17,152 nt of DNA from Candidatus Zhuqueibacterota bacterium (GTDB lineage Bacteria > BS750m-G25), in NCBI GenBank assembly GCA_016783505.1, contig JADHWK010000047.1, forward strand, positions 1 to 17,152, in the 5' to 3' direction. Shown in pieces: positions 2,160 through 17,152 of this stretch. Numbering within the stretch: the stretch's first letter is position 1; the number at the start of each line of letters is the position of its first letter. The translations under genes and the position numbers were made by a program. The notes under the pieces are model-generated. The model worked only from the letters and a program-made list of their open reading frames with translations. It was not told the origin of the DNA and searched no databases.

Positions 2160-2163
2160 GTGT

Positions 2164-2250: not shown

Positions 2251-2316
2251 CACTAGCCGTAGTGATCCATGTTTTCGTGATTTCAATTCCTGAACCCCTG
2301 GGCCTGGCTAGGGACA

Positions 2317-2339: not shown

Positions 2340-2363
2340 GGCTCTGTCAGGAACAGGTTTTAA

Positions 2364-2398
2364 ACTTCGCACTCCGAACTCCGCACCTCGCACTTGCT
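2364..2398. repeat. Heptad repeat, inverted sense
   Basis: Five phased units: ACTTCGC, ACTCCGA, ACTCCGC, ACCTCGC, ACTTGCT. On the opposite strand they read GCGAAGT, TCGGAGT and so on, resembling the GAAGTTC array at 2164-2212. The two arrays therefore face each other around the hairpin. Confidence 0.7.
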
Positions 2399-2498
2399 CG
2401 GTGAGGACACCTTTGCCCTAGTTACCTAATCAGGCCCAGGCCTCTTAACAATTTACAATAATTATTTGTATCTATACTATTACAATGATTATAAAACC

Positions 2499-3581
2499 AT
2501 GAAATACGTTGATGAATTTCGGAATAATCGTGTCGCCCAACGCCTTTCCGAGGAGATAAAATCCCTTGCCAGGGATAGGGAAATGACCTTCATGGAGGTC
2601 TGCGGGGGGCACACCATTGCCATATTTAAATATGGGTTGAGGGACTTTCTGCCTCCGGGGATTCATCTGATCTCCGGTCCTGGATGCCCGGTCTGCGTGA
2701 CCCCCACCGGGTTCATTGACCGGGCGGTGGCCCTGTCACGACGGAAAGAGGTGATCATCGCCACCTTTGGGGATATGATCCGGGTCCCCGGGTCATCGTC
2801 CAGCCTCCGGGAGGAAAAGGCCCAGGGAGCAGATGTCTGGGTGGTCTATTCAGCCATGGATGCCATACCTGTTGCCAGAGACAATCCGGACAAAAAGGTG
2901 GTGTTTTTAGGCATAGGGTTTGAAACCACCGCTCCCACCATTGCCGCTACCATCCTGCAAGCTGACCGTTTAAGATTATCCAATTTCTTCGTCCTCAGCA
3001 CCCTGAAGACCATGCCCAACGCCTTAAAAGCCCTGCTGGAGGGCGATGATATGGGGATTCAGGGGTTCATTTGTCCAGGACACGTGAGCACCATCACCGG
3101 TCTGGGAATCTACGAATTCATCGCCCGGGACTATGGAGTGCCCTGCGTCATATCGGGCTTTGAACCCACTGACATTTTGCAAACCCTTTACATGTTGACC
3201 CGACAGGTGGGGGACGGAGTTGCTAAAGTAGAAAGCCAATACACCCGAACGGTGAAGCGGGAAGGGAACCCCTTGGCTCAGAAGACAATGATGGCTGTGT
3301 TCGAGCCCTGTGATATGGAATGGAGGGGGCTGGGAATCATTCCGGGCAGCGGGCTTAAAATCAGGGATGAATTTGTCCGGTTCAACGCGCTTCAACATTT
3401 TGATGTGGAAGTGGAACCGACCCGGCAGGAGCCGGGTTGCATCTGCGGGGACGTGATGAGGGGGGCCAAGACCCCCCTGGACTGTAAGTTGTTCAAGAAA
3501 ACCTGTACCCCGGCTAATCCAGCCGGGGCCTGCATGGTTTCCGAGGAAGGGACGTGTGCTACGTATTTTAAGTACACCTAA
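2499..3581 (+). CDS. hypD: HypD, Fe(CN)2CO assembly scaffold
   Basis: HypD is the [4Fe-4S] scaffold on which, with HypC, the Fe(CN)2CO unit is assembled using cyanide from HypE. I take ATG 2499 (MKYVDEF), which matches the usual family N terminus, over an in-frame TTG at 2466 that would add a Tyr-rich 11-residue extension. The product is 360 residues, normal for the family. Conserved motifs are MEVCGGHT (Cys35, His38), GPGCPVCVTP (Cys63, Cys66), ICPGHVSTITG and GFEPTDIL. A C-terminal cysteine-rich segment follows (Cys314, 316, 329, 336, 345, 353). No good ribosome binding site is visible. The stop is one base before the chosen hypE start, so the two are probably translated together. Confidence 0.96.
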   Translation: MKYVDEFRNNRVAQRLSEEIKSLARDREMTFMEVCGGHTIAIFKYGLRDFLPPGIHLISGPGCPVCVTPTGFIDRAVALSRRKEVIIATFGDMIRVPGSSSSLREEKAQGADVWVVYSAMDAIPVARDNPDKKVVFLGIGFETTAPTIAATILQADRLRLSNFFVLSTLKTMPNALKALLEGDDMGIQGFICPGHVSTITGLGIYEFIARDYGVPCVISGFEPTDILQTLYMLTRQVGDGVAKVESQYTRTVKREGNPLAQKTMMAVFEPCDMEWRGLGIIPGSGLKIRDEFVRFNALQHFDVEVEPTRQEPGCICGDVMRGAKTPLDCKLFKKTCTPANPAGACMVSEEGTCATYFKYT

Positions 3582-3582
3582 A

Positions 3583-4596
3583 ATGAAAACGGACGAAAAA
3601 ATCACCCTGGCCCACGGCGGTGGGGGAAGGCTATCACGGGACTTTATCAAGAAAGTCCTGCTGCGATATTTTGGCAATCCCATTCTTTCCGAACTTCAGG
3701 ATTCGGCCACATTTGACCTGACTGGAAACCGGGTCGCCTTCACCACTGACTCCTACGTGGTCAAACCCCTCTTCTTCCCGGGTGGAGACATCGGAAAGCT
3801 GGCGGTGGCGGGAACCATCAATGACCTGGCGGTGGTGGGTGCTCAGCCCCTCTATCTTTCCTGTGGGTTGATTATAGAAGAGGGGTTCGAACTGGGTCAA
3901 TTGGAACGGATATTGGGGTCAATGCAGGAGACGGCCCGAAAAGCCGGGGTGAAGGTGGTGGCCGGGGATACCAAGGTGGTGGAGAAAAAAGGGGCCGATC
4001 AGCTTTTTATCAACACTGCTGGAATAGGGTTAATCAGGAAGGACCGATGCTTAAGCCCAGTCGGGCCTGGGATCGGGGACAAGATTATTATCAATGGGGG
4101 TTTGGGTGAACACGAAGCAGCGGTGATTTCTAGCCGGGAGGGGTTTGACTTCGAGACCGAAGTTGTCAGCGACTGCGTCCCTTTAAATGACTTGATTCAG
4201 GGCATTTTGAAGGTTTCCCCAAACGTGAAGTGGATGCGGGACCCTACCCGGGGGGGGCTGGCCGCCATCCTCAACGAGCTGGTTGAAGGAAAGCCCTTTG
4301 GGATCCGGATCGAAGAAGCCCAAATCCCGGTCAAAGAGGCGGTTAAGGGGATTTGTGAGCTGCTGGGGTTTGATCCCCTTTACATGGTGAACGAAGGAAA
4401 GGTAGTACTGGTTGTGGCCTGGGAAGACGCCGATCGGGTCCTGAAGATTATGCAGAAACATCCTCTGGGTGGGGAGAGCCGCATCATCGGGGAGATCGTT
4501 CCCGAACCGGAAGGCAAGGTGGTTTTGAAGACGGGGGTTGGGGGGCATCGGGTAGTGGATATGATGGTGGGGGAAATGCTGCCGCGGATCTGTTAG
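3583..4596 (+). CDS. hypE: HypE, thiocarbamate dehydratase
   Basis: HypE takes the carbamoyl group from HypF on its C-terminal cysteine, dehydrates it with ATP to a thiocyanate and donates cyanide to HypC-HypD. The ATG at 3583 gives 337 residues and the usual ITLAHGGGGRL opening; a GTG at 3556 inside hypD would add nine unrelated residues. The PurM/AIR-synthase-like ATP fold shows TTDSYVV, GTINDLAVVGAQP and AGDTKVVEK. The family-defining C terminus LPRIC is intact, with Cys337 as the acceptor. A G8 tract (4250-4257) lies in the gene. Directly after the stop come octamer repeats and then the terminator that closes the hyp run. Confidence 0.97.
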   Translation: MKTDEKITLAHGGGGRLSRDFIKKVLLRYFGNPILSELQDSATFDLTGNRVAFTTDSYVVKPLFFPGGDIGKLAVAGTINDLAVVGAQPLYLSCGLIIEEGFELGQLERILGSMQETARKAGVKVVAGDTKVVEKKGADQLFINTAGIGLIRKDRCLSPVGPGIGDKIIINGGLGEHEAAVISSREGFDFETEVVSDCVPLNDLIQGILKVSPNVKWMRDPTRGGLAAILNELVEGKPFGIRIEEAQIPVKEAVKGICELLGFDPLYMVNEGKVVLVVAWEDADRVLKIMQKHPLGGESRIIGEIVPEPEGKVVLKTGVGGHRVVDMMVGEMLPRIC

Positions 4597-4789: not shown

Positions 4790-5419
4790 TTGTTGACCAA
4801 GAAGAAAATTCCCCAGAGTACCGTCTGGAGACTCTCCCAGTATCTGAATTGTCTCAGCTTACTTTCCTCCGAGAAATGCCGGGAAATCTCCTCCCATGAA
4901 TTGGCTGAAAGGGTGGGCGTAAAGTCCACCCAGATCAGGCAGGATTTCCATTATTTTGGGGGATTCGGCCAGCCCGGATGCCGTTATAATGTGGGCCAGT
5001 TGATCGGGGAACTGGAGGCCATCTTAGGTCTTGACAAACCCCAGAACATGATCATCGTGGGAGCGGGAAATATCGGCCAGGCCCTGGCCCATTACGATAA
5101 ATTTGAGCCCCTGGGCTTTAGGCTGAAGGGAATCTTTGATGTTAACCCCAGATTGTTCGGGCTTAAGATCAGGGGTGTTGGGGTCAGGGATGTGAAAGAG
5201 CTGCCCCGATTTGTCAAAGATCACCACATTAGAATTGGCATCATCACCACCCCGGCCCGGGTGGCTCAGTCGGTGGCTGATCTTTTGGTTCGCATAAAGA
5301 TAAAGGGAATCTGGAATTTTTCGCCGATGAATGTCACCGCCCCGGAAGGGGTTTCCATGGTAAACGAGAACCTTTCGGTGGGTTTAATGACCCTATCCCA
5401 TAAGATCAAAGGAGGTTGA
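4790..5419 (+). CDS. rex: Rex, redox-sensing transcriptional repressor
   Basis: Rex senses the NADH/NAD+ ratio; NADH binding releases it from DNA. The 209-residue length is standard. Residues about 1-85 form the winged-helix DNA-binding domain, including ELAERVGVKSTQIRQD and a YFGGFGQPGCRYNV segment. Residues about 85 onward form the Rossmann domain with VGAGNIGQAL and FDVNP. The C-terminal stretch has IWNFSPMNV, family-typical for the domain-swapped dimer. The start is TTG at 4790 or 4793: an in-frame TAA at 4772 blocks any upstream start and there is no nearby ATG. No Shine-Dalgarno is visible, which is unusual. hdrC starts five bases after the stop, with GGAGG inside the rex 3' end. Confidence 0.96.
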   Translation: MLTKKKIPQSTVWRLSQYLNCLSLLSSEKCREISSHELAERVGVKSTQIRQDFHYFGGFGQPGCRYNVGQLIGELEAILGLDKPQNMIIVGAGNIGQALAHYDKFEPLGFRLKGIFDVNPRLFGLKIRGVGVRDVKELPRFVKDHHIRIGIITTPARVAQSVADLLVRIKIKGIWNFSPMNVTAPEGVSMVNENLSVGLMTLSHKIKGG

Positions 5420-5423
5420 TGGA

Positions 5424-5999
5424 ATGAAAGTCGAAAGGGTTATCAAATACGAAGCGGAGTTGGACAAAGATTTTTCCCAATGGGTAGTTTCCGTCCCAGG
5501 GGGCGAGCAGATACGGGATTGTATCCAGTGCGGTACCTGTAGTGCCACCTGTCCCCTGAGTATCTATATGGACTATACCCCGAGGAAGATTATCCTCATG
5601 GCCCATCAAGGGTTCAAAGAGGAAGTTTTAAGGAGTTTTACCCCCTGGCTGTGCGCTTCTTGTTATGCCTGTATGGTCAACTGCCCCCGGGAGATAAAGA
5701 TTACCGAGATTATGTATATTTTGAAGGAAAAGGCGATAGAAGAGGGGATGTATCCTAAGAGATTTCCCATACCCGTCTTGGCCCGAGAGTTCACCCGTAT
5801 GATCGTAAAGAAGGGTCGAAACCCGGAGACAAAACTGATCATTGCCCTGGCCCTGAGGACCAACCCGTTGAACCTGCTGAAAATGGCCCCGCTGGGTCTT
5901 CGGTTGATGAAAGCAGGTCGGTTGGAAATAATGACTAAGTCTATCAAGGGTAAGGACCAGCTTAAGACCATGTTGCAATCCCTGGAGGCGACGACATGA
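5424..5999 (+). CDS. hdrC: HdrC-like heterodisulfide reductase Fe-S subunit
   Basis: HdrC passes electrons between HdrA and HdrB in heterodisulfide-reductase-type complexes. This 191-residue protein has two ferredoxin motifs: Cys33-x2-Cys36-x2-Cys39-x3-Cys43-Pro and Cys77-x2-Cys80-x2-Cys83-x3-Cys87-Pro, each expected to bind a [4Fe-4S] cluster. The remainder (about 100-191) is helical and basic, without membrane segments, so this is the soluble type. GGAGG at 5411-5415 supports ATG 5424. The stop overlaps the hdrB ATG by four bases. In bacteria without coenzyme M the heterodisulfide is not the substrate; the physiological acceptor of HdrB is unknown here. Confidence 0.94.
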   Translation: MKVERVIKYEAELDKDFSQWVVSVPGGEQIRDCIQCGTCSATCPLSIYMDYTPRKIILMAHQGFKEEVLRSFTPWLCASCYACMVNCPREIKITEIMYILKEKAIEEGMYPKRFPIPVLAREFTRMIVKKGRNPETKLIIALALRTNPLNLLKMAPLGLRLMKAGRLEIMTKSIKGKDQLKTMLQSLEATT

Positions 6000-6862
6000 A
6001 AGAATATGCCTACTATCCCGGCTGTTCGGTAAAGGGGACAGCCAAGCATTACGAGGAATCTTTACTGACGGCTTTTGATGTCTTAGGATTGAACCTAACC
6101 GAGCTTGAGGACTGGAACTGCTGCGGGGCGACTCTTGCCCTTGCGGTGAACGAATTAAAATCATTTACCATGGTATCGAGGAATCTGGCGCTGGCTGAAA
6201 AAACGGGTCTCGACATAGTGACTCCCTGCAGTGCTTGCTATCTGGTGCTCCTCAAAACCCAGGATTATATCCGGCGTTATCCCGATATTAAGGCAAAAAT
6301 AGATAGGGCGCTGAAGTCGGTGGGGATGGAATACCGGGGAACGGTGCGGGTGAAACATACCTTAGAAGCCCTGGTGAACGATGTAAAACTGGAAGAGGTT
6401 AAAAATAGGGTGACCCGACCCCTGAAGGGGTTTAAGGTGGCCCCCTACTACGGCTGCCAGATTGTGAGGCCCTATAAGGAGTTTGATCACCCCTTCTATC
6501 CCGATTCTATGGACAGGCTTCTTAAAGCCTTGGGAGCCGAGGTGGTGGATTATCCTCTGAAGACCGACTGCTGTGGGGCTGCCATTGCCGGGACTATGGA
6601 GGAGGTGGGGGTGAGGCTCAATTATGTCCTCCTGAAAGAGGCCCAGAAAAGGGGGGCCAATTGTGTGGTTACGGTCTGTCCCCTGTGCCAGCTTAATCTC
6701 GAACAGTATCAGGGAAAGATAAATAAACGCTTTAATTCGGATATATCCCTTCCCATACTTTATTTCACCCAGCTATTGGGTCTGGCCCTGGGGGTCCCCG
6801 AAGAACGGTTGGGCTTTAACCGGGCGATGGTATCTGCCGATTCGCTTCTGGAGGCTGCTTAG
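5996..6862 (+). CDS. hdrB: HdrB-like subunit with two CCG domains
   Basis: HdrB carries the disulfide-reducing site of heterodisulfide reductases, with two noncubane [4Fe-4S] clusters held by CCG domains. Both motifs are complete in this 288-residue protein: Cys10, Cys42-Cys43, Cys78-x2-Cys81, and Cys154, Cys192-Cys193, Cys228-x2-Cys231. The spacing fits the family pattern C-x31-39-CC-x34-36-C-x2-C, so it should be catalytically competent rather than degenerate. GGAGG at 5984-5988 and the ATGA overlap with hdrC fix the start. hdrA follows after 12 bases. The substrate cannot be read from sequence. Confidence 0.95.
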   Translation: MKEYAYYPGCSVKGTAKHYEESLLTAFDVLGLNLTELEDWNCCGATLALAVNELKSFTMVSRNLALAEKTGLDIVTPCSACYLVLLKTQDYIRRYPDIKAKIDRALKSVGMEYRGTVRVKHTLEALVNDVKLEEVKNRVTRPLKGFKVAPYYGCQIVRPYKEFDHPFYPDSMDRLLKALGAEVVDYPLKTDCCGAAIAGTMEEVGVRLNYVLLKEAQKRGANCVVTVCPLCQLNLEQYQGKINKRFNSDISLPILYFTQLLGLALGVPEERLGFNRAMVSADSLLEAA

Positions 6863-6874
6863 ATAGGAGGTAAT

Positions 6875-7729
6875 ATGAATAAAAGGTTGAACGGAAGACC
6901 AAAAATCGGGGTATATATTTGCCACTGTGGAACGAACATTGCCAAGACGGTGAACATGGGTGAACTCGTCGGGTTCGCTTCCGGCCTGAACAGTGTAGGA
7001 GTAGCCCGAGAATATAAATATATGTGCTCAGACCCGGGCCAGGAAATGATTAAGAAGGACATTAAGGAATTGGAACTGAACCGGGTTGTGGTTGCCTCCT
7101 GTTCCCCATTGCTCCATGAGCATACCTTCAGACGGGCCTGCGAAGACGCCGGATTAAATCCTTATCTTTTTCAAATGGCCAACATCAGGGAGCACTGTTC
7201 CTGGGTGACCCCGGACCCGGCCCAGGCCACGGCCAAGGCCAAAAGGATCGTGGCGGCGGCAGTTGTACGGGTTGTTTATCAGGAACCCCTGGAGGTGAAG
7301 AAGGTACCGGTGAATCCCAATGTCGTGGTGGTGGGGGGAGGGATCACGGGTATTGAAACTGCCCTGAGACTGGCCCAGTCAGGACGAAAGGTGTACCTGG
7401 TGGAACGGGAGCCCTCCATCGGGGGCCATATGGCCGAGTTAGACAAGACCTTTCCCACCCTGGACTGCGCCGCCTGTATCCTCACCCCCAAGATGGGCGC
7501 CGTGGGGCAAGAACCCAACATTGAGCTTTTGACATATAGTGAGGTAGAAGATATTTCGGGATATGTGGGGAATTTCAAGGTCAAAATTCACAAAAAGCCC
7601 CGATATGTTGATCTAGAAAAATGTACCGGCTGCGGGCTGTGCTGGACTAACTGTCCCACTAACATTGTTCCCTCAAAACGGGTGATTAGAAGGGGCGATT
7701 TGATCATCAATCAAACGGAGGTAGGTTGA
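6875..7729 (+). CDS. hdrA: HdrA N-terminal half (short, split HdrA)
   Basis: HdrA is the flavin-bifurcating subunit of Hdr complexes, usually about 650 residues or more. Here the frame ends at residue 284. It contains the N-terminal cysteine region (ICHCGT, Cys16/Cys18; Cys51; Cys76 in ASCSP), the FAD Rossmann motif VVVGGGITGIETALRLAQSG (from 151), and the DCAACILTPKM segment (Cys198, Cys201). The inserted ferredoxin motif Cys250-x2-Cys253-x2-Cys256-x3-Cys260-Pro follows. The C-terminal flavin-domain portion and two terminal clusters are absent. AGGAGG at 6865-6870 supports ATG 6875. The stop overlaps the next start, with that gene's GGAGG inside hdrA, so the short length looks settled rather than a fresh frameshift. 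The missing half is encoded at 14952-16700. Confidence 0.93.
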   Translation: MNKRLNGRPKIGVYICHCGTNIAKTVNMGELVGFASGLNSVGVAREYKYMCSDPGQEMIKKDIKELELNRVVVASCSPLLHEHTFRRACEDAGLNPYLFQMANIREHCSWVTPDPAQATAKAKRIVAAAVVRVVYQEPLEVKKVPVNPNVVVVGGGITGIETALRLAQSGRKVYLVEREPSIGGHMAELDKTFPTLDCAACILTPKMGAVGQEPNIELLTYSEVEDISGYVGNFKVKIHKKPRYVDLEKCTGCGLCWTNCPTNIVPSKRVIRRGDLIINQTEVG

Positions 7730-8082
7730 CCCTTAAGGAGATCGTAAAAATTCTCGGTTGTCAGGTGGTGGTGGGCAAGGAGACCCTGGATACTGAGGTG
7801 AGGGCCGGATGCGGCTGCGATCTGATGAGCGATGTATTAGCCTTTATTAAGCCCGACGCCCTGCTGTTGACCGGACTGAATAATCCCCAGGCGGTTCGCA
7901 CCGCAGAGATATCCGAAATAAAGGTCATCTGCTTTGTCAGGGGTAAACAGCCCAGCGAAGCTATGATCGCCCTGGCCCGGGAAAAGGAGATCGCCATTTT
8001 AACTACCTCCCTGCCCATGTTCGAGGCCTGCGGTAGATTGTTTAAGAACGGTCTGATAGGCTGTTCTGAATATGATGAATAA
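7726..8082 (+). CDS. DRTGG-domain protein, Cys-rich paralogue
   Basis: A 118-residue stand-alone DRTGG-type domain. Such proteins recur beside hydrogenase and bifurcating-enzyme genes in anaerobes, but their biochemical role is not established. The recognisable core is DLMSDVLAF, LLTGLNNPQAV and CFVRGKQPSE, then TTSLPMFEACGRL. It has six cysteines (12, 29, 31, 69, 102, 113), including Cys-Gly-Cys at 29-31; the paralogue at 9027-9365 has only one. A redox or metal-sensing role is possible but unproven. The start is TTG 7726, overlapping the hdrA stop by four bases, with GGAGG at 7717-7721. Confidence 0.85.
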   Translation: MTLKEIVKILGCQVVVGKETLDTEVRAGCGCDLMSDVLAFIKPDALLLTGLNNPQAVRTAEISEIKVICFVRGKQPSEAMIALAREKEIAILTTSLPMFEACGRLFKNGLIGCSEYDE

Positions 8083-8089
8083 AATTTAA

Positions 8090-9049
8090 GTGGGCACTTC
8101 CGTGGTTGATGAAAAGGAAATCACTAAGGTCCAGGAATTAGTCTATGAGTTGAAAGTAGGGCAGGTTATGGTTAAGGACGTTATTACGGTAACTCCCCAT
8201 AATCTGATGAGTGAACTCCGGGACCTGTTACGTGATAAACGTATTTCTGGCGTTCCCGTAGTAGATAAAGGCAGATTGGTCGGTTTGGTCAGCATTGAGG
8301 ACTTTATCAAATGTCTGACTGACGGCAAGATGGGCAGTCCCGTTGAAGAGAGAATGAACCGGAACGTTAAAACCCTGTATGATAATGAGCCGTTGGTCCA
8401 TGCGGTGAAAGAGTTTGACCGGATGGGTTACGGGCGTTTTCCGGTGGTGGATCGGGAAAGCGGAAAATTAATGGGGATAATCACCAAGGGGGACATCATT
8501 CGGGGTCTGCTCAAAAAGATGGAAATAGATTACCAGGAAGAGGAGATTCATCGCTATCGGGCCAGCCATTTCTTCGAAGACATTGTAGCTGATAAAACCA
8601 CCCTCATATTCCAATATAACGTCATCGGCAAAGATTTTGATCGGGCCGGGGAGACATCCAGTGGACTCAAAAAGACCCTGAGAAGGATGGGGATCTCCCC
8701 AAAGGCTATCCGTCGGCTCGCCATAGCGACCTATGAAGCCGAGATGAACATCGTTGTTTTTACCGACGGGGGGGAGATAACCGCCCGGGTAACCCCACAG
8801 GAGGTCAGGGTGGAGGTGGTGGACTCTGGGCCGGGGATTCCTGATATTAAAAAGGCCATGGAGCCCGGATTTTCAACGGCACCGGATTGGATCAGGGAGT
8901 TGGGTTTCGGTGCCGGCATGGGCCTGGCGAACATTAGGAAGTGTGCTGATGCGATGCATCTTGAGTCCACCGTGGGCAAGGGAACCCGGCTGGAAATCAC
9001 CGTTTATTTAAACGAGAAAGAGAAGCATGGTTCTGGGAACGATAGTTGA
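8090..9049 (+). CDS. CBS-CBS-HATPase fusion (RsbW/SpoIIAB-like kinase domain)
   Basis: A 319-residue regulatory protein. Residues about 22-150 are a pair of CBS domains (VMVKDVITVTP ... GVPVVDKGRLVGLVSIEDF; FPVVDRESGKLMGIITKGDI), which commonly bind adenine nucleotides. Residues about 185-310 are a GHKL ATPase of the anti-sigma/serine-kinase type, with N-box YEAEMNIV, G1 box DSGPGIPD and G2 box GFGAGMGLANI. No phosphoacceptor or transmembrane segment is seen. The expected output is phosphorylation or binding of a partner protein in response to energy charge (inference). An in-frame TAA at 8087 forces the start to GTG 8090 or the GTG at 8102; neither has a good ribosome binding site. It overlaps the next gene by 23 bases. 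Confidence 0.88.
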   Translation: MGTSVVDEKEITKVQELVYELKVGQVMVKDVITVTPHNLMSELRDLLRDKRISGVPVVDKGRLVGLVSIEDFIKCLTDGKMGSPVEERMNRNVKTLYDNEPLVHAVKEFDRMGYGRFPVVDRESGKLMGIITKGDIIRGLLKKMEIDYQEEEIHRYRASHFFEDIVADKTTLIFQYNVIGKDFDRAGETSSGLKKTLRRMGISPKAIRRLAIATYEAEMNIVVFTDGGEITARVTPQEVRVEVVDSGPGIPDIKKAMEPGFSTAPDWIRELGFGAGMGLANIRKCADAMHLESTVGKGTRLEITVYLNEKEKHGSGNDS

Positions 9050-9365
9050 AAAATTAGGTCTTGGGGTGAAGACCGCCCCGAGAGATCTCACCAGCGAGGT
9101 AACCGGGGCCTACGTCAGTGACCTGTTGAGCGACGTGATGGCCAACTCAAAAGAGGGGAACCTCTGGGTGACCCTTCAAGTTCATCCCAACATCGTAGCG
9201 GTAGCCACCCTTAAGGATCTTTCTGGTATTATCTTGGTGAACGGCCGCCAGCCCGCGGAGGAGACCCTTAAAAAGGCGGAGGAGGAGCAGATCCCCCTCA
9301 TGACCACCGGGTTGCCGACCTTCCAACTGGTGGGAAAGTTGTACAATTTAATCGGGGAATGCTGA
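9027..9365 (+). CDS. DRTGG-domain protein, second paralogue
   Basis: A 112-residue DRTGG-type protein paralogous to the one at 7726-8082. Both share the DLxSDVxA core, an N..AV segment, a V.G.QP.E segment and a LP.F...G.L ending with Gly-Leu/Ile. This copy lacks the Cys-Gly-Cys and retains only Cys112 at the C terminus. ATG 9027 lies inside the CBS-HATPase gene, 23 bases before that gene's stop, behind a weak GAGAAAG purine run, so translational coupling is likely. The stop overlaps the PHP gene start by seven bases. The function is not known. Confidence 0.85.
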   Translation: MVLGTIVEKLGLGVKTAPRDLTSEVTGAYVSDLLSDVMANSKEGNLWVTLQVHPNIVAVATLKDLSGIILVNGRQPAEETLKKAEEEQIPLMTTGLPTFQLVGKLYNLIGEC

Positions 9366-10093
9366 GGGAATTCGAGGCCGACCTTCACATCCATACCTGC
9401 CTTTCCCCCTGTGGGGATCTGAAGATGTCCCCGGGAGGGATCGTGAAAGAGGCGGTAAAGGAAGGTATTGATCTTATTGCCATCTGCGATCATAACTCTT
9501 CCGAAAATGCCGGTGCTGTCATCAAGGCATCGGAGGGGAAAGGGGTTGCGGTTTTGCCGGGAATCGAGATCACATCAAAAGAGGAAGTCCACATTTCCGC
9601 CCTGTTTGACCATTTTGATGATGCCCTTAAGCTGCAGATGTTGATCTACGAAAATCTGGATGGTGAAAACGACGAGGAAGTTTTTGGCATGCAGGTGGTG
9701 GTGAATGAGAAAGGTGAAGTATTGGGGTTTAATAAAAAGCTTTTAATCGGGGCCACCAACCTTTCCGTTGAAGAGATAGTCAATGCCATCCATTCCTTTC
9801 ATGGACTGGCGATCGCTGCCCACATTGACCGGGAAGGGTTCGGGATCATCGGACAGTTGGGATTCATTCCCCCTGAATTGGGATTGGACGCCCTGGAAAT
9901 TTCCCCTAAAATGGAAATGGAAGAAGCCCGAACGAGATTCAGCGAATATCATAAATATCCCTTCCTGTGTTCTTCCGATGCCCATTATTTGGATGATATT
10001 GGCAAGGGGACGACCACCTTTCTGTTGGAGGAGGCGTCGCTTAAAGAACTCAGAATGGCCCTAAAGGGGGAAGGGGGTAGGGGAATTTGCTGA
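9359..10093 (+). CDS. PHP-domain metal-dependent phosphoesterase
   Basis: A 244-residue PHP-superfamily phosphoesterase. The metal-binding motifs are present: DLHIHT (His10, His12), CDHNS (Asp44, His45), PGIEIT (Glu70), His78, AHIDR and SSDAHYL near the C terminus. PHP enzymes hydrolyse phosphate esters with two or three metal ions; related stand-alone forms act on nucleotides or sugar phosphates, and the substrate here is unknown. It overlaps the second DRTGG gene by seven bases and is followed by a stand-alone HATPase, an order I recognise from hydrogenase-linked clusters in anaerobes. The final codon and stop lie in a GCTGATA heptad repeat. Confidence 0.9.
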   Translation: MLREFEADLHIHTCLSPCGDLKMSPGGIVKEAVKEGIDLIAICDHNSSENAGAVIKASEGKGVAVLPGIEITSKEEVHISALFDHFDDALKLQMLIYENLDGENDEEVFGMQVVVNEKGEVLGFNKKLLIGATNLSVEEIVNAIHSFHGLAIAAHIDREGFGIIGQLGFIPPELGLDALEISPKMEMEEARTRFSEYHKYPFLCSSDAHYLDDIGKGTTTFLLEEASLKELRMALKGEGGRGIC

Positions 10094-10116
10094 TAGCTGA
10101 TAGCTGATTGCTGTTA
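10089..10116. repeat. GCTGATA heptad repeat spanning a stop-start junction
   Basis: Four phased units: GCTGATA (10089-10095), GCTGATA, GCTGATT, GCTGTTA (10110-10116). The PHP stop codon TGA (10091-10093) is inside the first unit and the last base of the array is the A of the next gene's ATG. The usual Shine-Dalgarno position before 10116 is occupied by repeat and shows no purine-rich motif. Confidence 0.8.
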
Positions 10117-10649
10117 TGGAAGACCTTTCCCTGCATATTTTGGATGTGGTTGAAAATTCCATAGACGCTGGTGCCCGAAAAGTTGAGATTAAGATTTACG
10201 AGGATTTGAAGAAGGACTTGCTTGAGATCGAAATTATTGACGATGGAAAGGGCATGGACGAGGGGACTTTAGAAAAGGCTCTGGATCCATTTTTCACCAC
10301 GAAGACGGTCCGAAAGGTGGGGCTGGGACTCTCCCTGTTCAGGGAAGCGGCTAGAATGGCAAACGGAGACCTTTCCATTCGATCGGAAGCTGGGCGGGGA
10401 ACCACGATAAGGGCCACCTTTCAACACAGCCATATTGACCGCAAACCAATGGGAGATTTAGAAGAAACGCTTTTCACGTTAATCATTGGAAATCCGGAAG
10501 TAGTTTTTTCTTTCGCCTATTTAAAAAATGGAAAAATGTTTAACATGAATACAACGGGGCTAAAGAAAAAACTTCCAGGTAATTACTTCAGTTCATCGGA
10601 GGGAATTAAGGTTTTAAGAAATGAATTAAACAAACTGGATGGCTTTTAG
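10116..10649 (+). CDS. Stand-alone GHKL (HATPase) domain protein
   Basis: A 177-residue protein with the ATP-binding part of a histidine kinase but no dimerisation or phosphoacceptor domain. Motifs are N-box VVENSIDAGA, G1 box DDGKGMD, F-box DPFFTTK and G2 box GLGLSLF. The last ~70 residues (from HIDRKPMGDLEE) form an extra domain that I associate with this hydrogenase-cluster family. There is no transmembrane segment. ATG 10116 abuts a repeat array and lacks a clear ribosome binding site. Base composition changes inside the gene: rows covering 10261-10440 are about 50-57% G+C by hand count, those from 10501 about 28-35%. Confidence 0.88.
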   Translation: MEDLSLHILDVVENSIDAGARKVEIKIYEDLKKDLLEIEIIDDGKGMDEGTLEKALDPFFTTKTVRKVGLGLSLFREAARMANGDLSIRSEAGRGTTIRATFQHSHIDRKPMGDLEETLFTLIIGNPEVVFSFAYLKNGKMFNMNTTGLKKKLPGNYFSSSEGIKVLRNELNKLDGF

Positions 10650-10655
10650 GAAAAA

Positions 10656-10679
10656 GTGTTTCCGTGTTTCCATGTTTTG
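10656..10679. repeat. GTGTTTCC octamer repeat
   Basis: Two exact units GTGTTTCC (10656-10663, 10664-10671) and a degenerate third, ATGTTTTG (10672-10679), in the 110-base gap before the nuoE-like gene. The rest of that gap is AT-rich with a TATAAA at 10731-10736 but no convincing -35 partner, so I do not call a promoter. Confidence 0.55.
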
Positions 10680-10774
10680 CCGAGGAGTTAATTTTAATTC
10701 TCTACAAATTTTAAGAATTACCCAGGAAGCTATAAAAGCCAAATTATCAAATTTACAGAATGGAGGTAATGAAA

Positions 10775-11230
10775 ATGGTAGTTGAAAAAGTCTTTGAAAT
10801 AATTGAAGAATACAATCATGACCCAGGGGCTATATTCGAAGTACTTATTGATATTCAAAATGAGTTTAGTTATTTACCTGAGGAGGGGCTCGAGAAAGTT
10901 TCTAGAGAGTTAGAGATTCCCCTGAGTAGATTATATAGTTTAGCTACTTTTTATAAAGCTTTTAGCCTCACTCCCAAGGGAAGATATCCGATTCAAGTTT
11001 GTATAGGTACAGCCTGTCATGTCCGAGGAGGGCAGCGGATTTTAGAGAAACTTGAAAAGGAATTAGATTTAAAAACCGGAGAAACTACGGAAGATTTGAA
11101 TCTCAGCTTAGACGCTATTAGATGTTTAGGAAGTTGTTGCTTGGCCCCAGTGGTCAAAGTTGGAGACGAGGTTTACGCTAATTTGACGCAGACCAGGATA
11201 CCAGAATTATTGAAAAAATATAAAAAATAA
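10775..11230 (+). CDS. NuoE/HndA-like [2Fe-2S] diaphorase subunit
   Basis: A 151-residue thioredoxin-like [2Fe-2S] subunit of NADH dehydrogenase and bifurcating hydrogenase diaphorase modules (NuoE, HndA, HydC family). The four ligands are Cys76 and Cys81 (CIGTAC) plus Cys117 and Cys121 (CLGSCC). The N-terminal helical part (residues 1-70) is typical. I choose ATG 10775 because GGAGG at 10762-10766 sits eight bases before it; ATG 10760 overlaps that site and ATG 10769 is too close. It is the first gene of an AT-rich block that continues through the NuoF-like gene. It works with the NuoF-like protein downstream, oxidising or reducing NAD(P) in the cytoplasm. Confidence 0.94.
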   Translation: MVVEKVFEIIEEYNHDPGAIFEVLIDIQNEFSYLPEEGLEKVSRELEIPLSRLYSLATFYKAFSLTPKGRYPIQVCIGTACHVRGGQRILEKLEKELDLKTGETTEDLNLSLDAIRCLGSCCLAPVVKVGDEVYANLTQTRIPELLKKYKK

Positions 11231-11248
11231 AATTTAACGGAGGGAAAA

Positions 11249-11638
11249 ATGCCGAAATTAACTTTAAAAGATTTAGAAAAAATCAGAGAAAAAGCAAGAA
11301 GGTCAACTATTCTTAGAGAAGGAGCCGGAAAAGCTAAAATTACAGTTCATATGGGAACATGCGGTATTGCAGCTGGAGCCAGAAATATTATGCGAGCTCT
11401 AGTGGAAGAGGTGGAAAGAGGAGGAGTAGAAGATGTAATACTTACTAATTCTGGATGCGCTGGACTCTGTAGTCATGAGCCCATGATGACTGTTCAAATT
11501 GTGGGGGGACCACCAGTTAAGTATGTTGACTTGACAGAAGAAAAAGCTAAGGAAATTTTTAAAAGTCACGTGATGGGTAGAGAAATTGTGAAAGAGTATG
11601 CCCTAGCAATAGGAAGTGAGCAAACATCAACTAAATAA
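11249..11638 (+). CDS. HndB-like (2Fe-2S) ferredoxin-fold subunit
   Basis: A 129-residue thioredoxin-fold protein resembling HndB of NADP-reducing hydrogenases, usually encoded between the NuoE- and NuoF-like genes, as here. Visible motifs are VHMGTCGIAAGA (Cys38) and TNSGCAGLCSHEPMM (Cys70, Cys74). Compared with the neighbouring NuoE-like protein, the first Cys of the C-x4-C pair is His34 and the second is shifted, so a standard four-Cys [2Fe-2S] site is not obvious; similar spacing is, as I recall, usual in HndB relatives. GGAGGG at 11239-11244 supports the start. Codon use is AT-rich, as in its neighbours. Confidence 0.88.
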   Translation: MPKLTLKDLEKIREKARRSTILREGAGKAKITVHMGTCGIAAGARNIMRALVEEVERGGVEDVILTNSGCAGLCSHEPMMTVQIVGGPPVKYVDLTEEKAKEIFKSHVMGREIVKEYALAIGSEQTSTK

Positions 11639-11867
11639 CTAAGCTATTCTAATTTTGAATATGTGATGTTGTTGGAATGCATCCCCAAGCTTCAGGATGC
11701 ATGCATTGATATGGTCAATCCACTCCAGACAGAAATGAAGAATATAGGTTACAAAACGGTTGGGACGATTCATATCAGTCGGGTCAGTTAGGCGCCTGAA
11801 TGACATCTGATCGAAGCAAATATCTTATGTTTCAATAGCTTATTTAATAAATCGAAAGGAAAGATAA
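11639..11867. other. Gap with hairpin inside the diaphorase block
   Basis: This 229-base gap interrupts an otherwise tight gene order. It holds a perfect 8-base inverted repeat, ATGCATCC (11677-11684) and GGATGCAT (11695-11702), with a 10-base loop containing AAGCTT and no T tract. A 41-codon ATG frame (11666-11791) is open but has no ribosome binding site and no recognisable product. AAAGGAAAG just before 11868 serves the next gene. I see no promoter I would defend. Confidence 0.5.
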
Positions 11868-14800
11868 ATGGTTGAAAAGGCATATCGTTTACACGTGATG
11901 GTTTGCGCAGGCACTGACTGCGTTACTAATCGGTCTTTTGAAGTTCTAGAAGCATTAGAACGAGAAATTGAAAAACACAATCTTGAGGATGAAGTTTTAG
12001 TAGTCACCACCGGATGTAATGGCTTTTGCGCTGAGGGACCAATTCTTATTGTTCGTCCCGATGGTATTTTCTATCAAAGGGTGAAAAAAGAGGACATATC
12101 TTTTTTAGTTGAGGAGCATTTCCTAAAGGGGAGACCGGTTAAAAAATTGATGTACACGCCACCCGAGGCCGAACCAATTCCTAAGCTCAGTGAAATAAAG
12201 TTCTTTGGTAAACAGATTCTTATAGCCATGAGAAATCGAGGTTTAATCGATCCTGACAATATAGAAGATTACATTGCTCGAGATGGTTATGCCGCCTTAG
12301 CGAAAGCTTTAGCCTCAATGACTCCAGAAGGGATTATTAAGGAAATAAAAGCATCGGGATTGCGAGGGAGAGGAGGGGCTGGTTTTCCCACAGGGATAAA
12401 ATGGGAGTTAGCAAGAAAAGCAGATGGTGAAACAAAATATATAATTTGTAACGCTGATGAAGGTGATCCAGGAGCTTTTATGGATAGAAGTATAATGGAA
12501 TCTGATCCTCATGCTGTAATTGAAGGAATGATTATTGGAGCCAATGCAATTGGTGCTCAAGAAGGTTTTATTTATGTCAGAAACGAATACCCAATGGCAA
12601 GAGAAAAATTAGCGAGAGCGATTGAGCAAGCAAGGGAGTATGGCCTCTTAGGAGAAAATATTTTAGACTTAGGCTTTAACTTTGATGTTCATCTTCATCG
12701 GGGAGCAGGAGCCTTCGTTTGCGGAGAAGAAACAGCCTTGATCAATTCAATAGAGGGAAAGCCGGGAGAACCTCAAACAAGGCCTCCGTATCCAGTAGAA
12801 AGTGGGCTGTGGAAAAGACCAACTGTAATCAATAATGTTGAAACGTGGGCTAATGTTGCTGTAATCATCAATCGCGGAGCTAAATGGTATTCAAAAATTG
12901 GTACTGTAGGAAGTAAAGGAACGAAAGTGTTCTCCGTGGTAGGGAAAGTAATTGACACAGGGCTTGTAGAGGTGCCAATGGGGACCACACTTGGAGAAAT
13001 CATTTTTGATATTTGTGGTGGAATTCCAGGAGATAGAAAATACAAAGCTGTCCAGATTGGGGGACCCTCCGGAGGATGTTTATCAGCGAGTCACTTAAAT
13101 TATCCAGTAGATTATGAAAGTTTAATTGAAGCTGGTTCAATTATGGGATCTGGTGGAATGGTGGTAACTGACGAGAATACCTGTATGGTGGATTTAGCGA
13201 AATTTTTTCTCACTTTTACCAAAGACGAATCCTGCGGAAAGTGTACACCCTGTCGTGAAGGTATCCCCAGGATGCTTGAAATCCTTGCTAAAATCACAGA
13301 AGGCCGTGGTGAGATGGATGATCTAACAATGCTTGAGGTTTTAGCAACAACCATCAAAGCAACCGCCCTCTGCGGTCTTGGAAACACTGCTCCAAACCCT
13401 GTTCTTTCTACCCTTAGATATTTCAGAAACGAATATGAAAATCACATCAAATACAAAAAATGTGATGCAGCAGTCTGTAAGCAAATTATATCTTCACCCT
13501 GTCATCATACCTGCCCGATTGGAACAGACGTGCCATCGTATATCGCGCTCATTGCTCAAGGGCATTTCGATGAAGCGTTTGACGTCATCTGGGAAGAAAA
13601 TCCTTTGCCCAGCATCTGCGGACGTGTCTGCAACCATCCCTGCGAGGTGAGATGTCGCTCCGGGGATATTGATAAACCCATTGCCATCAGAGACCTAAAA
13701 CGTTTTGTCTGTGATCACAAAAATGGCCGAATAAGAAGTTTTCCGACACCCACCAAGAAATACGAGAAGGTGGCCATCATTGGTTCCGGTCCTGCTGGAC
13801 TTGTCTGCGGATGGGAACTAGCGAAATTGGGTTACAAACCGACCATTTTTGAAGCGCTTCCAGTCGCTGGCGGTATGCTTGCTGTAGCAATTCCCGAATA
13901 CAGATTACCCAAAGACATTTTGAATGAGGAAATCGAAGGCATCAAAAAGGCAGGTGTTGAAATTATTACTAACTTAAAAATCGGTAAAGACAAATCGATT
14001 GACGACCTTTTTAATGAGAGCTACAAAGCTGTCTTCATCGCAACGGGTGCTCATAACAATCTGAAGCTGAAAATTCCCGGTGAGGATGCTGAAGGTGTTA
14101 TTGACCCGATTGAGTTTCTCCGAAAGGTTGCCCTTGGTGAGGATGTAAAAATCGGTAAAAAGGTTGTGGTGATCGGTGGCGGTGATACGGCAATTGATTC
14201 TGCCCGGGCCGTTTTACGAATGGGCGCAGATGTCACCATCGTGTATCGCCGTACACGCATTGAGATGCCCGCAGCTGCAGAAGAAATTGAAGCGGCGATG
14301 GAAGAAGGAATTCAGATGCACTTCCTCGCTACACCGGTTGAGGTAATCTCAAAGAATGGAAGACTTGCCAAAATCAAATGCGTCAATATGTCCCTTGGTG
14401 AATTTGATAAAGGGGGAAGGAGAAGACCAATCCCAGAAAAAGGCACAGAATTTGAAATTGAGTGTGATACGTTCATCCCTGCCATTGGACAGAAACCCGA
14501 CCTTTCATTTGTGAAAAACGGTAAACTTAAAACTTCGAAGTGGAATACGCTTGTAGTTAATTCTGAAACTCTGGAGACAGATCAACCTAGAATTTTTGCT
14601 GGCGGGGATGTTGTCAGTGGTCCTGCTACAGTGATTGAAGCCATGGCTGCCGGGAAAAAAGCTGCGGTTTCCATCCATAAATACCTGCGTGGAGAAAGTC
14701 TCGAGAGAACCTATGAAGTGACAAAACCAACCCGGGAAATCCCGGCGGTAGCGCTTACTGAAGATGAATTGGTGACACTGAAACGACCGACAATGCCTTT

Positions 14801-14909
14801 TCTTTCAATGGACGAACGGAAAAGCAATTTCAAAGAAGTAGAACAGGGATTCACAAAAGAAATAGCAATCCAGGAAGCAAAACGCTGCTTGCGATGTGAT
14901 TTGGAATAA
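11868..14909 (+). CDS. NuoF-GltD fusion flavoprotein (NAD(P)H oxidoreductase)
   Basis: A 1013-residue fusion. Residues 1-95 are a thioredoxin-like [2Fe-2S] domain (Cys13, Cys18, Cys50, Cys54). Residues about 115-530 are NuoF/HndC-like, with the NADH loop GRGGAGFPTGIKW (from 167), FMN motifs NADEGDPGAFMDR (195-207) and GAGAFVCGEETALI, and a [4Fe-4S] site at Cys456, Cys459, Cys462 and Cys502. From about 532 it is GltD/NfnB-like: an N-terminal cysteine set (Cys545, 549, 584, 588, 592, 596), FAD motif IIGSGPAGL (from 637), second Rossmann motif VVVIGGGDTAIDSAR and YRRTRIEMPA, typical of NADPH enzymes. The C terminus has CLRC (1007-1010). The usual HndC C-terminal ferredoxin domain is replaced by the GltD half. 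It could exchange electrons among NADH, NADPH and the NuoG-like partner (inference). Confidence 0.92.
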   Translation: MVEKAYRLHVMVCAGTDCVTNRSFEVLEALEREIEKHNLEDEVLVVTTGCNGFCAEGPILIVRPDGIFYQRVKKEDISFLVEEHFLKGRPVKKLMYTPPEAEPIPKLSEIKFFGKQILIAMRNRGLIDPDNIEDYIARDGYAALAKALASMTPEGIIKEIKASGLRGRGGAGFPTGIKWELARKADGETKYIICNADEGDPGAFMDRSIMESDPHAVIEGMIIGANAIGAQEGFIYVRNEYPMAREKLARAIEQAREYGLLGENILDLGFNFDVHLHRGAGAFVCGEETALINSIEGKPGEPQTRPPYPVESGLWKRPTVINNVETWANVAVIINRGAKWYSKIGTVGSKGTKVFSVVGKVIDTGLVEVPMGTTLGEIIFDICGGIPGDRKYKAVQIGGPSGGCLSASHLNYPVDYESLIEAGSIMGSGGMVVTDENTCMVDLAKFFLTFTKDESCGKCTPCREGIPRMLEILAKITEGRGEMDDLTMLEVLATTIKATALCGLGNTAPNPVLSTLRYFRNEYENHIKYKKCDAAVCKQIISSPCHHTCPIGTDVPSYIALIAQGHFDEAFDVIWEENPLPSICGRVCNHPCEVRCRSGDIDKPIAIRDLKRFVCDHKNGRIRSFPTPTKKYEKVAIIGSGPAGLVCGWELAKLGYKPTIFEALPVAGGMLAVAIPEYRLPKDILNEEIEGIKKAGVEIITNLKIGKDKSIDDLFNESYKAVFIATGAHNNLKLKIPGEDAEGVIDPIEFLRKVALGEDVKIGKKVVVIGGGDTAIDSARAVLRMGADVTIVYRRTRIEMPAAAEEIEAAMEEGIQMHFLATPVEVISKNGRLAKIKCVNMSLGEFDKGGRRRPIPEKGTEFEIECDTFIPAIGQKPDLSFVKNGKLKTSKWNTLVVNSETLETDQPRIFAGGDVVSGPATVIEAMAAGKKAAVSIHKYLRGESLERTYEVTKPTREIPAVALTEDELVTLKRPTMPFLSMDERKSNFKEVEQGFTKEIAIQEAKRCLRCDLE

Positions 14910-14951
14910 AAACGAAATGATATGATTTAATTTGGGAATGGGGAGAAAGAT

Positions 14952-16700
14952 ATGATACAATTAGAAATAGACGGTCATATCGTCGAAGTTGAAGAGGGCA
15001 CCACAATCCTGAAAGCGGCTGAAAAGCTGGATATCAAAATTCCCACTCTATGTTACCATCCCCTTTTGGAGCCGTATGCTGCCTGCCGGATTTGCACCGT
15101 AGAAGTAATAGCAGAGGGCGTTTCCGAACTGGTCACTTCCTGCAATACCCAGGTTCAGGAGGGAATGGTCGTTCAGACCCAGTCAGAGAAATCCCTAAAC
15201 GCCAGGCGGATAAACCTGGAGCTGTTGATGGCTCAGGCTCCGGCAGCCAGGGTCGTTCAGGAGCTGGCGGCAGAACTCGGGGTTGAAAAAACCAGGTTTA
15301 CCATCGAAAAACCCGAAGAAAAGTGCATCCTCTGCGGATTATGCGTGCGAACTTGCGAGCAGGTGGTGGGGGTATCCGCTATCAGTTTTGTCAACCGGGG
15401 GCGTGACAGGGAGGTGTCTACCCCCTTTGAGAAGTCCTCGGAGGCTTGTATCGCCTGCGGGGCCTGCGCCTATTTCTGTCCCACCGAGGCCATTACTATG
15501 GAGGATGCGCTGGGCCGAGAGGTGCTCCACGATCAACTCTACTTAGGTCCCACCACTGCCATCCGTGTTCCTTTCCTCCAGGCAATTCCTAATGTGCCCT
15601 GCATTGACACTGAAGCCTGTATTCACTTCAAGACAGAGGAGTGCAAGCTCTGCGAGAAAGTCTGCGAGCCAGAGGCGATAAATCATGAAGCAACCGATGA
15701 ATATGAAGAGATCGAGGTGGGGGCCGTTGTGGTGGCCACCGGATACGAACTCTTGGAAATGAATGCGCTCCAAAGCTATGGATACGGTAAACTTCCTAAT
15801 GTATTGACATCCCTGGAGTTTGAGCACCTGTGCCATGCCTCAGGACCTACCGGGGGTAAGGTACTGCTTCAGGACGGCCGGGAACCGGAAACGGTCGGTA
15901 TTATTCACTGCGTGGGTTCACGGGATGAGAACTACAAATCCTACTGCTCCCGGGTCTGCTGTATGTATGCCCTGAAATTCTCCCACCTGGTAAAAGAGAA
16001 GACTTCCGCCGGGGTGTATGAGTTTTACATTGACATTCGGGCCCCGGGGAAGGGTTATGAGGAATTCTACAACCGCATGCTGGAGGAGGACGTAATCTTC
16101 ATTCGGGGTAAAGTGGCTGAGGTTAGCGATGTGGCCCTGATACCGGAGGAGGAGGGAAAACTGGTCCTCCGCTGTGAGGACACCTTGCTGGGAATTGTCC
16201 GTCGCATCCCGGTGGATATGGTGATACTCTGCCCGGCCATGGTGCCCCGGAAGGACGCCGGAGAACTGGCGCGACTGTTCGGCATTAGCTGCGGCGAAGA
16301 CGATTTCTTCCGGGAGCTTCACCCCAAGTTGGCCCCCATCAATACTGCGGCAGATGGTATCTTCGTAGCCGGGGCCTGCCAGGCGCCCAAGGACATCCCG
16401 GATTCGGTGGCCCAGGGGGCCGGAGCCGCCGGGGCTGTTCTTTCGCTCGGGGATACTTTTTCTATGGAACCCATCTATGGTGTAATTGACGAAGATTTGT
16501 GCGCCGGGTGTAAGGTCTGCATCGCTGTCTGCCCCTATGAGGCCATCATTTTCAATGAAGAGAAAAAGATAAGCGAGATCCAGGAAATGCTGTGCAAGGG
16601 GTGCGGGGCCTGCGTAGCCGCCTGTCCTTCGGGGGCCAGTTATCAAAAAGGCTTTAGGGACGAACAGATCATTGCTGAGCTGGAGGGAGCGCTCGTTTAA
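14952..16700 (+). CDS. NuoG-like N terminus fused to HdrA C-terminal half
   Basis: A 582-residue chimera. Residues 1-75 are a plant-type [2Fe-2S] domain (Cys34, Cys45, Cys48, Cys64). Residues 120-182 carry two [4Fe-4S] motifs (Cys125, 128, 131, 135; Cys166, 169, 172, 176), as in the N-terminal arm of NuoG and bifurcating hydrogenases; the NuoG His-Cys3 cluster is not seen. From about 197 it matches HdrA downstream of the inserted ferredoxin domain: AIRVPFLQAIPN, Cys223/231/234/238, VVVATGYEL, CVGSRDE, YCSRVCCMYALKFS and FVAGACQAPKDIPDSVAQG. Two terminal [4Fe-4S] motifs follow (Cys517, 520, 523, 527; Cys548, 551, 554, 558). There is no GxGxxG, so it needs the protein at 6875-7729 to complete a flavin site. 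GGGGAG at 14940-14945 supports the start. G+C is higher again than in the preceding block. Confidence 0.93.
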   Translation: MIQLEIDGHIVEVEEGTTILKAAEKLDIKIPTLCYHPLLEPYAACRICTVEVIAEGVSELVTSCNTQVQEGMVVQTQSEKSLNARRINLELLMAQAPAARVVQELAAELGVEKTRFTIEKPEEKCILCGLCVRTCEQVVGVSAISFVNRGRDREVSTPFEKSSEACIACGACAYFCPTEAITMEDALGREVLHDQLYLGPTTAIRVPFLQAIPNVPCIDTEACIHFKTEECKLCEKVCEPEAINHEATDEYEEIEVGAVVVATGYELLEMNALQSYGYGKLPNVLTSLEFEHLCHASGPTGGKVLLQDGREPETVGIIHCVGSRDENYKSYCSRVCCMYALKFSHLVKEKTSAGVYEFYIDIRAPGKGYEEFYNRMLEEDVIFIRGKVAEVSDVALIPEEEGKLVLRCEDTLLGIVRRIPVDMVILCPAMVPRKDAGELARLFGISCGEDDFFRELHPKLAPINTAADGIFVAGACQAPKDIPDSVAQGAGAAGAVLSLGDTFSMEPIYGVIDEDLCAGCKVCIAVCPYEAIIFNEEKKISEIQEMLCKGCGACVAACPSGASYQKGFRDEQIIAELEGALV

Positions 16701-16935: not shown

Positions 16936-17152
16936 ATGGCCAACAACAATTTCGAACCAAAACTGGTGGGATTTTTATGCCGCTGGTGTTCTTACCAGGG
17001 GGCCGATCTGGCCGGCACCAGCCGTATTGAATATCCCCCCAACCTGGTTCCCATACGGGTGATGTGCTCCGGTCGGGTGGACCCCGTCTTTGTGCTGAAG
17101 GCCTTCTCCCGGGGGGCGGATGGGGTCATCGTCTTCGGCTGTCATCCTGGGG
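16936..17152 (+). CDS. mvhD: MvhD-like [2Fe-2S] subunit (3' partial)
   Basis: The first 72 residues of an MvhD/FlpD-family protein, the small iron-sulfur subunit that connects a hydrogenase or formate dehydrogenase to HdrA. Clear family signatures are [20 protein letters not shown] (Cys15, Cys18), [17 protein letters not shown] (Cys44) and [10 protein letters not shown] (Cys69). The C-terminal remainder lies beyond the window. CGGAGG at 16921-16926 is correctly placed for ATG 16936. Given the hyp genes at the other end of the window, a [NiFe] hydrogenase (MvhGA type) downstream is plausible but not visible. Confidence 0.94.

Follow-up and report, generated by a model that had tools for sequence, protein, structure and literature searches.

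A two-chain HdrA with an NADH module predicted at the cut: a conserved and recurrent arrangement in Candidatus Zhuqueibacterota and other phyla

Electron bifurcation lets anaerobes save energy, and HdrA provides one of the flavin sites where it takes place. Here we describe a 17,152-nucleotide stretch of DNA from a Candidatus Zhuqueibacterota bacterium (contig JADHWK010000047.1, hereafter the window) in which HdrA is not encoded as one polypeptide. Instead, two genes about 7.2 kb apart specify an N-terminal half of 284 residues (HdrA_N, 6875..7729) and a 582-residue chimera, in which a BfuA/NuoG-like N-terminus is followed by the C-terminal half of HdrA (14952..16700). This split is real, conserved and recurrent. 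We regard it as likely that the two proteins are halves of one HdrA and join into a complex with a Bfu-type NADH module, a reading in which we infer assembly, cluster sharing, electron path and bifurcation.

The window is the entire contig (C61) of a 2.5-Mb metagenome-assembled genome (MAG) that is 60% complete and comprises 89 contigs; all of its genes discussed below lie on the forward strand. An earlier reading of the letters (the original prediction) had already proposed a HdrA divided into complementary chains. Its coordinates, lengths and reading frames were correct when the open reading frames were re-checked, and its overall reading is supported, although it overlooked the clusters predicted to be common to both chains, the wide and recurrent spread of the arrangement, and the NADH module at the cut.

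Results

We found that the 284-residue protein matches the solved HdrA structure 5odc_A over residues 3-260 only (phmmer, E 4.9e-101), while the chimera matches HdrA from about residue 265 (5odc) or 276 (8rvu) onward as far as the C-terminus, with E values between 1e-102 and 2e-107. Chimera residues 1 to about 190 are of the BfuA/HydA/NuoG type ([2Fe-2S] plus 2[4Fe-4S]), with matches to 9mqx_A and 8a6t_A, and residues from about 198 to 582 constitute the HdrA C-terminal half. AlphaFold models, computed for single chains from the unchanged translations, superpose on 5odc_A at 2-239 for HdrA_N (Z 23.6, root-mean-square deviation 2.9) and at 285-636 for the chimera (Z 26.4, root-mean-square deviation 5.1). 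On 5odc the halves do not overlap, and about 4 residues separate them. The proposals that the halves are complementary with little or no overlap, and that the chimera resumes HdrA and reaches its terminal clusters, are thus borne out by both alignments and models.

HdrA_N contains the N-terminal Fe-S domain, the Rossmann motif GGGITG (154-159) for flavin adenine dinucleotide (FAD), the equivalent of Cys197 (C201) and the first Cys4 motif. Its residues C16, C18, C51, C76, G154, G156 and G159 were invariant in six sequences, and the fold match agrees with the presence of both the N-terminal Fe-S domain and the Rossmann motif. The chimera contributes the second Cys4 motif, the FAD motifs ATG and AGACQAPKD, the CX11CX3CC site of the cluster near FAD (C320, C332, C336 and C337, invariant in 21 chimeras) and a C-terminal 2[4Fe-4S] ferredoxin, where Fer4_7 matches residues 517-562. 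It had been claimed that the chimera has no GxGxxG; formally it has one (GAGAAG, 489-494), but this lies in the helix after AGACQAPKD and forms no Rossmann loop, the nucleotide-binding GGGITG being on HdrA_N. With this distribution of motifs, the idea that the flavin would sit at an interface between two subunits is well supported at the level of sequence.

On the other hand, the exact position of the break differs from the one first suggested. The hdrA stop had been placed after the inserted ferredoxin domain, but it falls inside this domain, after Cys4 motif I (C250, C253, C256 and C260, on HdrA_N) and before motif II (C223, C231, C234 and C238, on the chimera). The motif I cysteines are invariant in 17/17 HdrA_N and those of motif II in 21/21 chimeras, and an inserted ferredoxin domain with two Cys4 motifs exists only in the two proteins taken jointly. 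In a two-cluster ferredoxin fold, three ligands of a Cys4 motif bind one cluster and the fourth binds the other. Since motifs I and II are on separate chains and each would feed both clusters, the two [4Fe-4S] clusters are predicted to be common to both chains, and the halves probably share these clusters besides the FAD site. In the single-chain models the half-ferredoxin segments have low predicted local distance difference test scores (50-67 at HdrA_N 241-284, 28-62 at chimera 191-250), as expected of half-domains without their partner. The next gene starts at a TTG that shares 4 bases with the hdrA stop (TTGA, 7726-7729), which is consistent with the translational coupling proposed originally.

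The split recurs well beyond this contig. A second split pair, whose HdrA_N is fused to NuoE, lies on contig C68 of the same genome, and pairs occur in at least ten named phyla. Split pairs or chimeras come from Fidelibacterota (Neomarinimicrobiota), Calditrichota, Armatimonadota, Zixiibacteriota, Spirochaetota, Thermodesulfobacteriota, Fibrobacterota, Planctomycetota, Myxococcota, Verrucomicrobiota and Cloacimonadota. They are also present in MAGs labelled Aminicenantes, GN15, Altiarchaeales and Thermoplasmata. The exact gene order of the window is kept in an Aminicenantes (L068) and a Calditrichota (L069) locus, which indicates that the 7-kb separation is itself conserved. In two single-contig genomes of the phylum that includes genome G120 (G160 and G162) the order is hdrC-hdrB-HdrA_N-nuoE-nuoF/gltD-chimera-mvhD-mvhG-mvhA. 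Two architectures can be distinguished: the short one is that of the window, in the long one, the chimera measures about 1,090 residues and includes a second HdrA, and its partner is a HdrA_N that lacks its N-terminal domain and is usually fused to NuoE.

The search for a short HdrA co-occurring with the chimera, called for by the original prediction, gave a clear outcome. Among 14 genomes of the G120 phylum, 10 hold a stand-alone HdrA_N together with a full chimera and 4 hold neither (exact test about 0.001, ignoring relatedness), and among 145 diverse genomes the same five hold both halves (5/5). No full-length HdrA running past a stop of the 7729 type was found in independent assemblies; homologues end alike in G054, G128, the G120 phylum, Aminicenantes and Calditrichota, including single-contig genomes. 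The view that the stop is no sequencing frameshift is therefore upheld. Of the observations that would have spoken against a split HdrA, namely a full-length HdrA read on beyond that stop in an independent assembly, an overlap or large gap between the halves, or a short form occurring without the chimera, we encountered none.

The two halves also appear to have evolved together. Pairwise distances of 16 HdrA_N and of their chimeras are correlated with r = 0.861, a value reached in 0/2000 permutations, and the matching correlation between the two parts of 43 one-chain HdrA is r = 0.847. Both halves of each pair are nearest to the same one-chain HdrA lineage, as for the C68 pair (nearest to L020/L021) and the L075 pair (nearest to the full HdrA next door). 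Moreover, three bacterial loci (L097 from Desulfobulbus Tol-SR, L100 and L114) encode single polypeptides with the order HdrA_N, motif I, extra clusters, NuoG-type dicluster, motif II and HdrA_C, their HdrA_N part being without its N-terminal domain. These one-chain forms show that the halves are parts of a whole and that the cut site can accommodate NuoG-type clusters. A fourth candidate, L122, has an ordinary inserted ferredoxin domain and was not counted. We also rejected CX7C in place of CX2C in motif II (5 residues longer) as a signature of NuoG insertion, as it is present in 33/51 one-chain HdrA rows.

A single origin of the split is rejected by the tree of the HdrA C-terminal part (HdrAc; approximately unbiased test, p = 0.003), whose well-supported branches require at least 8 changes. 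Since split forms are not one clade in this tree, the arrangement has originated or spread by transfer on more than one occasion. Support in the NuoG-domain tree is too weak to separate independent insertions from recombination. A Neomarinimicrobiota chromosome carries, as its second split pair (L162, 13099-15760), two halves that lie side by side and whose open frames overlap, possibly an intermediate form.

Seven split loci (L073, L079, L080, L083, L084, L096 and L099) carry an in-frame TGA in HdrA_N exactly at the Cys197-equivalent codon (DCAM-TGA-IISPK). This TGA probably encodes selenocysteine, which would make the split HdrA_N a selenoprotein in those loci. Selenocysteine-containing HdrA is already known from sulfate reducers (PMC5109826).

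Between the halves, the window encodes the remaining parts of an NADH module: a NuoE/BfuC-like [2Fe-2S] subunit (10760..11230, recognised by NuoE/HoxE family models) and a protein in which NuoF/BfuB (residues 5-542) is fused to an NfnL/GltD-like NAD(P)H:FAD domain (543-1011; gene at 11868..14909). The best PDB match of the NuoF part is 7t2r_B of the bifurcating NiFe-Bfu (751 bits), followed by HydB 7q4v_B (718 bits) and 9mqx_B, whereas NuoF of complex I (2fug_1) reaches 397. It is thus a BfuB homologue nearest to bifurcating members. The GltD part, an NfnL-like part, matches best 9bov_A (Nfn-Bfu). Bfu enzymes are marked by a B2 cluster and by B3/B4 clusters in a C-terminal ferredoxin domain of BfuB; here the C-terminal part of BfuB is replaced by this GltD-type domain with its own Fer4_20. 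In predicted structure, the N-terminus of the chimera superposes on BfuA of Wor-Bfu (9mqx_A, Z 24.1).

NuoF or GltD sequence lies directly upstream of 48/60 mapped chimeras (overlapping loci counted), and NuoE is fused C-terminally to HdrA_N in L036, L040, L074, L075 and others. The HdrA_N-NuoE and NuoG-HdrA_C fusions together locate the NADH module at the inserted ferredoxin domain. In the published model of HdrABC-MvhAGD, this domain is the route to free ferredoxin (PMC9012536, after Wagner et al. 2017). Taking module position and published ferredoxin route together, communication between the inserted-ferredoxin branch and the NADH/flavin mononucleotide (FMN) site is the natural inference.

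The genes of this block differ in composition from their surroundings. The GC content at third codon positions (GC3) is 0.24-0.36 in nuoE, the [2Fe-2S] ferredoxin-like gene and nuoF-gltD (10760-14909) versus 0.57-0.70 in most of the window's remaining genes, among them those for the two HdrA halves. In its NuoF part the fusion is nearer to G101 (62%) than to G054 (54%), the genome to which the chimera is nearest. The nuoE-nuoF block between the halves looks as if it had been replaced by transfer.

MvhD, MvhG and MvhA directly follow the chimera in L037, L038, L070, L071 and other loci, and the window itself ends with the first 72 codons of mvhD (16936..17152; sequence and MvhD profile match). 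In L083, L096 and L099, MvhD occupies two frames instead of one. In L040 (G134, 8155-16033) the split complex adjoins EtfBA, fatty-acid oxidation genes including 3-hydroxyacyl-CoA dehydrogenase, and an HdrD-like HdrC-HdrB fusion. These neighbours indicate that the third partner varies, and suggest that L040 encodes an acyl-CoA-linked version without hydrogenase.

Discussion

Considering the above results, the halves would associate and rebuild the flavin domain, with the Rossmann GxGxxG coming from HdrA_N and ATG and AGACQxPKD from the chimera. The inserted two-cluster ferredoxin domain would likewise be rebuilt from motif I and motif II, both [4Fe-4S] clusters being ligated by both chains, and the Bfu-type NADH module (NuoE/BfuC, NuoF/BfuB and NuoG-N/BfuA) would be covalently attached at the cut. 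The likely complex is HdrBC, split HdrA, NuoEFG and MvhDGA. We propose that electrons from H2 may enter via MvhAGD and the C-terminal ferredoxin and reach FAD at the chain interface, where one path would lead to HdrC/HdrB, whose acceptor would be a disulfide or something similar, and the other into the inserted-ferredoxin branch. Through the latter, electrons would pass to the NuoG clusters and to the FMN site that serves NAD+/ferredoxin, rather than to free ferredoxin only. Electron flow in the reverse direction would be equally possible.

These findings point to an uncharacterised enzyme linking hydrogen, NADH and, probably, a disulfide. A more far-reaching proposal is that of a double-bifurcating class, in which the flavin and both clusters of the exit domain would be ligated across two chains and the exit branch hard-wired to an NADH/FMN bifurcating core, coupling H2, NAD+, ferredoxin and a disulfide-type acceptor. 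Such a class would have more than one origin, with a NuoEFG module inserted or recombined into different HdrA lineages, always at the same site. We put this forward tentatively and rate it somewhat below an even chance.

Some observations weigh against a complex of split HdrA, NADH module and hydrogenase. MvhG and MvhA are not within the window, as the contig ends inside mvhD. The chimera loci L067, L076 and L089 have no HdrA_N within 8-10 kb upstream, the genome of L067 having two HdrA_N elsewhere. In addition, the L162 pair and the one-chain forms have no adjoining NuoE/NuoF, and the NADH link is consequently not universal. The two proteins might also not pair at all, HdrA_N serving as an adaptor for a full-length HdrA and the chimera as a lone iron-sulfur relay. 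Such a scheme would be in line with the full-length HdrA relatives on contig C1 of the same genome, and with the HdrA-paralogue heterodimers proposed in anaerobic methanotrophic (ANME) archaea (PMC9012536). However, the chimera retains FAD motifs and cluster ligands that would be useless without HdrA_N. Moreover, the halves co-occur in 10/10 genomes, their co-evolution matches that of a single chain, the two members of every pair derive from one HdrA lineage, and one-chain versions exist. We consider separate roles for the two proteins quite improbable.

An artefact of sequencing, assembly or decay, with a frameshifted or broken hdrA beside an unrelated fusion gene, deserves mention given the fragmentation and incompleteness of the MAG and the strong GC3 difference of the nuoE-nuoF block between the halves. 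Yet independent genomes from other phyla, some of them single contigs, have the same split and gene order, this genome has a second split pair, and the frames are long, intact and equipped with invariant ligands. As homologues show the same split, we reject assembly error or frameshift and regard the chance of any artefact as negligible. The split HdrA might, finally, assemble without bifurcating and be a plain conduit among NADH, H2 and HdrB. Bifurcation is not readable from sequence, and some bacterial HdrABC complexes are thought not to bifurcate (PMC5861303); conversely, the FAD motifs and cluster-ligand cysteines are conserved here, and the NuoF part is nearest to bifurcating BfuB proteins. 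A non-bifurcating conduit is, in our opinion, a serious contender that nevertheless stays well under even chances.

The split HdrA with its NADH module falls within the HdrABC and Bfu kinds as a variant and does not make up a separate kind. It resembles MvhAGD-HdrABC of methanogens (5ODC) in HdrB, HdrC, both HdrA halves and MvhD, with MvhG and MvhA following in close relatives, and differs from it by the two chains of HdrA and the NuoEF(G) NADH module attached at the inserted ferredoxin domain. Compared with the Bfu family (HydABC, NiFe-Bfu 7T2R and Wor-Bfu 9MQX; PMC9304861), NuoE/BfuC and NuoF/BfuB are close homologues and the N-terminus of the chimera matches BfuA of Wor-Bfu, whereas BfuA is here fused to half of HdrA and the C-terminal part of BfuB is replaced by the NfnL/GltD domain. 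The Bfu classification, as given in that text, has no split-HdrA type. The same source (Schut et al. 2022) describes Bam-Bfu, the class II benzoyl-CoA reductase (BamBCDEFGHI), which combines a BfuABC module and an HdrA-type module in one complex. Unlike it, the window has no BamB-type gene, and no split HdrA is mentioned for Bam in the available text, the comparison being by description and not by sequence.

A 2025 survey distinguishes archaeal HdrA types I, Ia, II and III, and the available text reports no split class among its 1,152 archaeal HdrA sequences (PMC12054007). Type III, as described there, has a GltD/NfnB domain inserted within the same inserted ferredoxin domain; however, that chain is whole, while the present HdrA is cut, has a NuoG-type insert and carries GltD on NuoF, and is thus not of type III. 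For ANME archaea, whose HdrA include HdrA9-11, Chadwick et al. 2022 describe an NfnB insertion in the same domain as well as tandem or fused HdrA (PMC9012536). Type III HdrA, with GltD inserted at the split point, is also found in bacteria (L039, 5335-8770, and L058-L064), and in L039 and L064 it adjoins a split pair or its HdrA_N. In Caldithrix abyssi, HdrABC genes of unknown function upstream of a group 3c [NiFe] hydrogenase have been described, and a split HdrA or NADH module is not remarked on in the available text (PMC5317091). A search of open-licence papers for an HdrA that is split or truncated, or that is joined to an NADH module, yielded nothing relevant; the search did not extend to Appel et al. 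2021, on HdrA(BC) module diversity, and absence is not proven.

A natural two-chain HdrA would provide a means to dismantle the flavin site, with halves that could be made separately and then mixed. Furthermore, the position of the cut shows where the NADH module plugs in, which makes the destination of the low-potential electron directly testable. Current annotation would read the pieces as a truncated HdrA and a NuoG-like protein, and a widespread hydrogen/NADH/Hdr complex of uncultured phyla would thereby be misread.

Other features of the locus

Upstream of the split HdrA, the window contains a partial hypF, hypD and hypE for [NiFe]-hydrogenase maturation (2..4596) and, directly upstream of hdrC, a gene for a Rex-like redox regulator of 209 residues (4790..5419); these names were read from the sequences of the open reading frames. 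The Rex-like gene makes NADH-responsive control of the locus probable. The HdrC-like [4Fe-4S] subunit (5424..5999) matches TIGR03290 (4e-22, below the curated cut-off), and its position is kept in L037-L039, L069 and L070. The HdrB-like subunit (5996..6862) has two CCG domains (PF02754) and matches TIGR03288 (2e-60) and NF042965 (2e-65), both below the curated cut-offs.

Between the HdrA halves, regulatory genes with Pfam matches to DRTGG, CBS-HATPase, DRTGG, PHP and HATPase (7726..10649) occur in the same order in L068 and L069. The small [2Fe-2S] ferredoxin-like protein (11249..11638, from the domain map) is conserved in L041, L068, L069, L077, L082 and L092; a low-GC gap of 229 bases without an assigned gene (11639-11867) separates its gene from nuoF. 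Downstream of this genome's second pair (L036, 10024-13855), a sensor-kinase-like protein and an NtrC-like regulator are encoded in place of MvhDGA.

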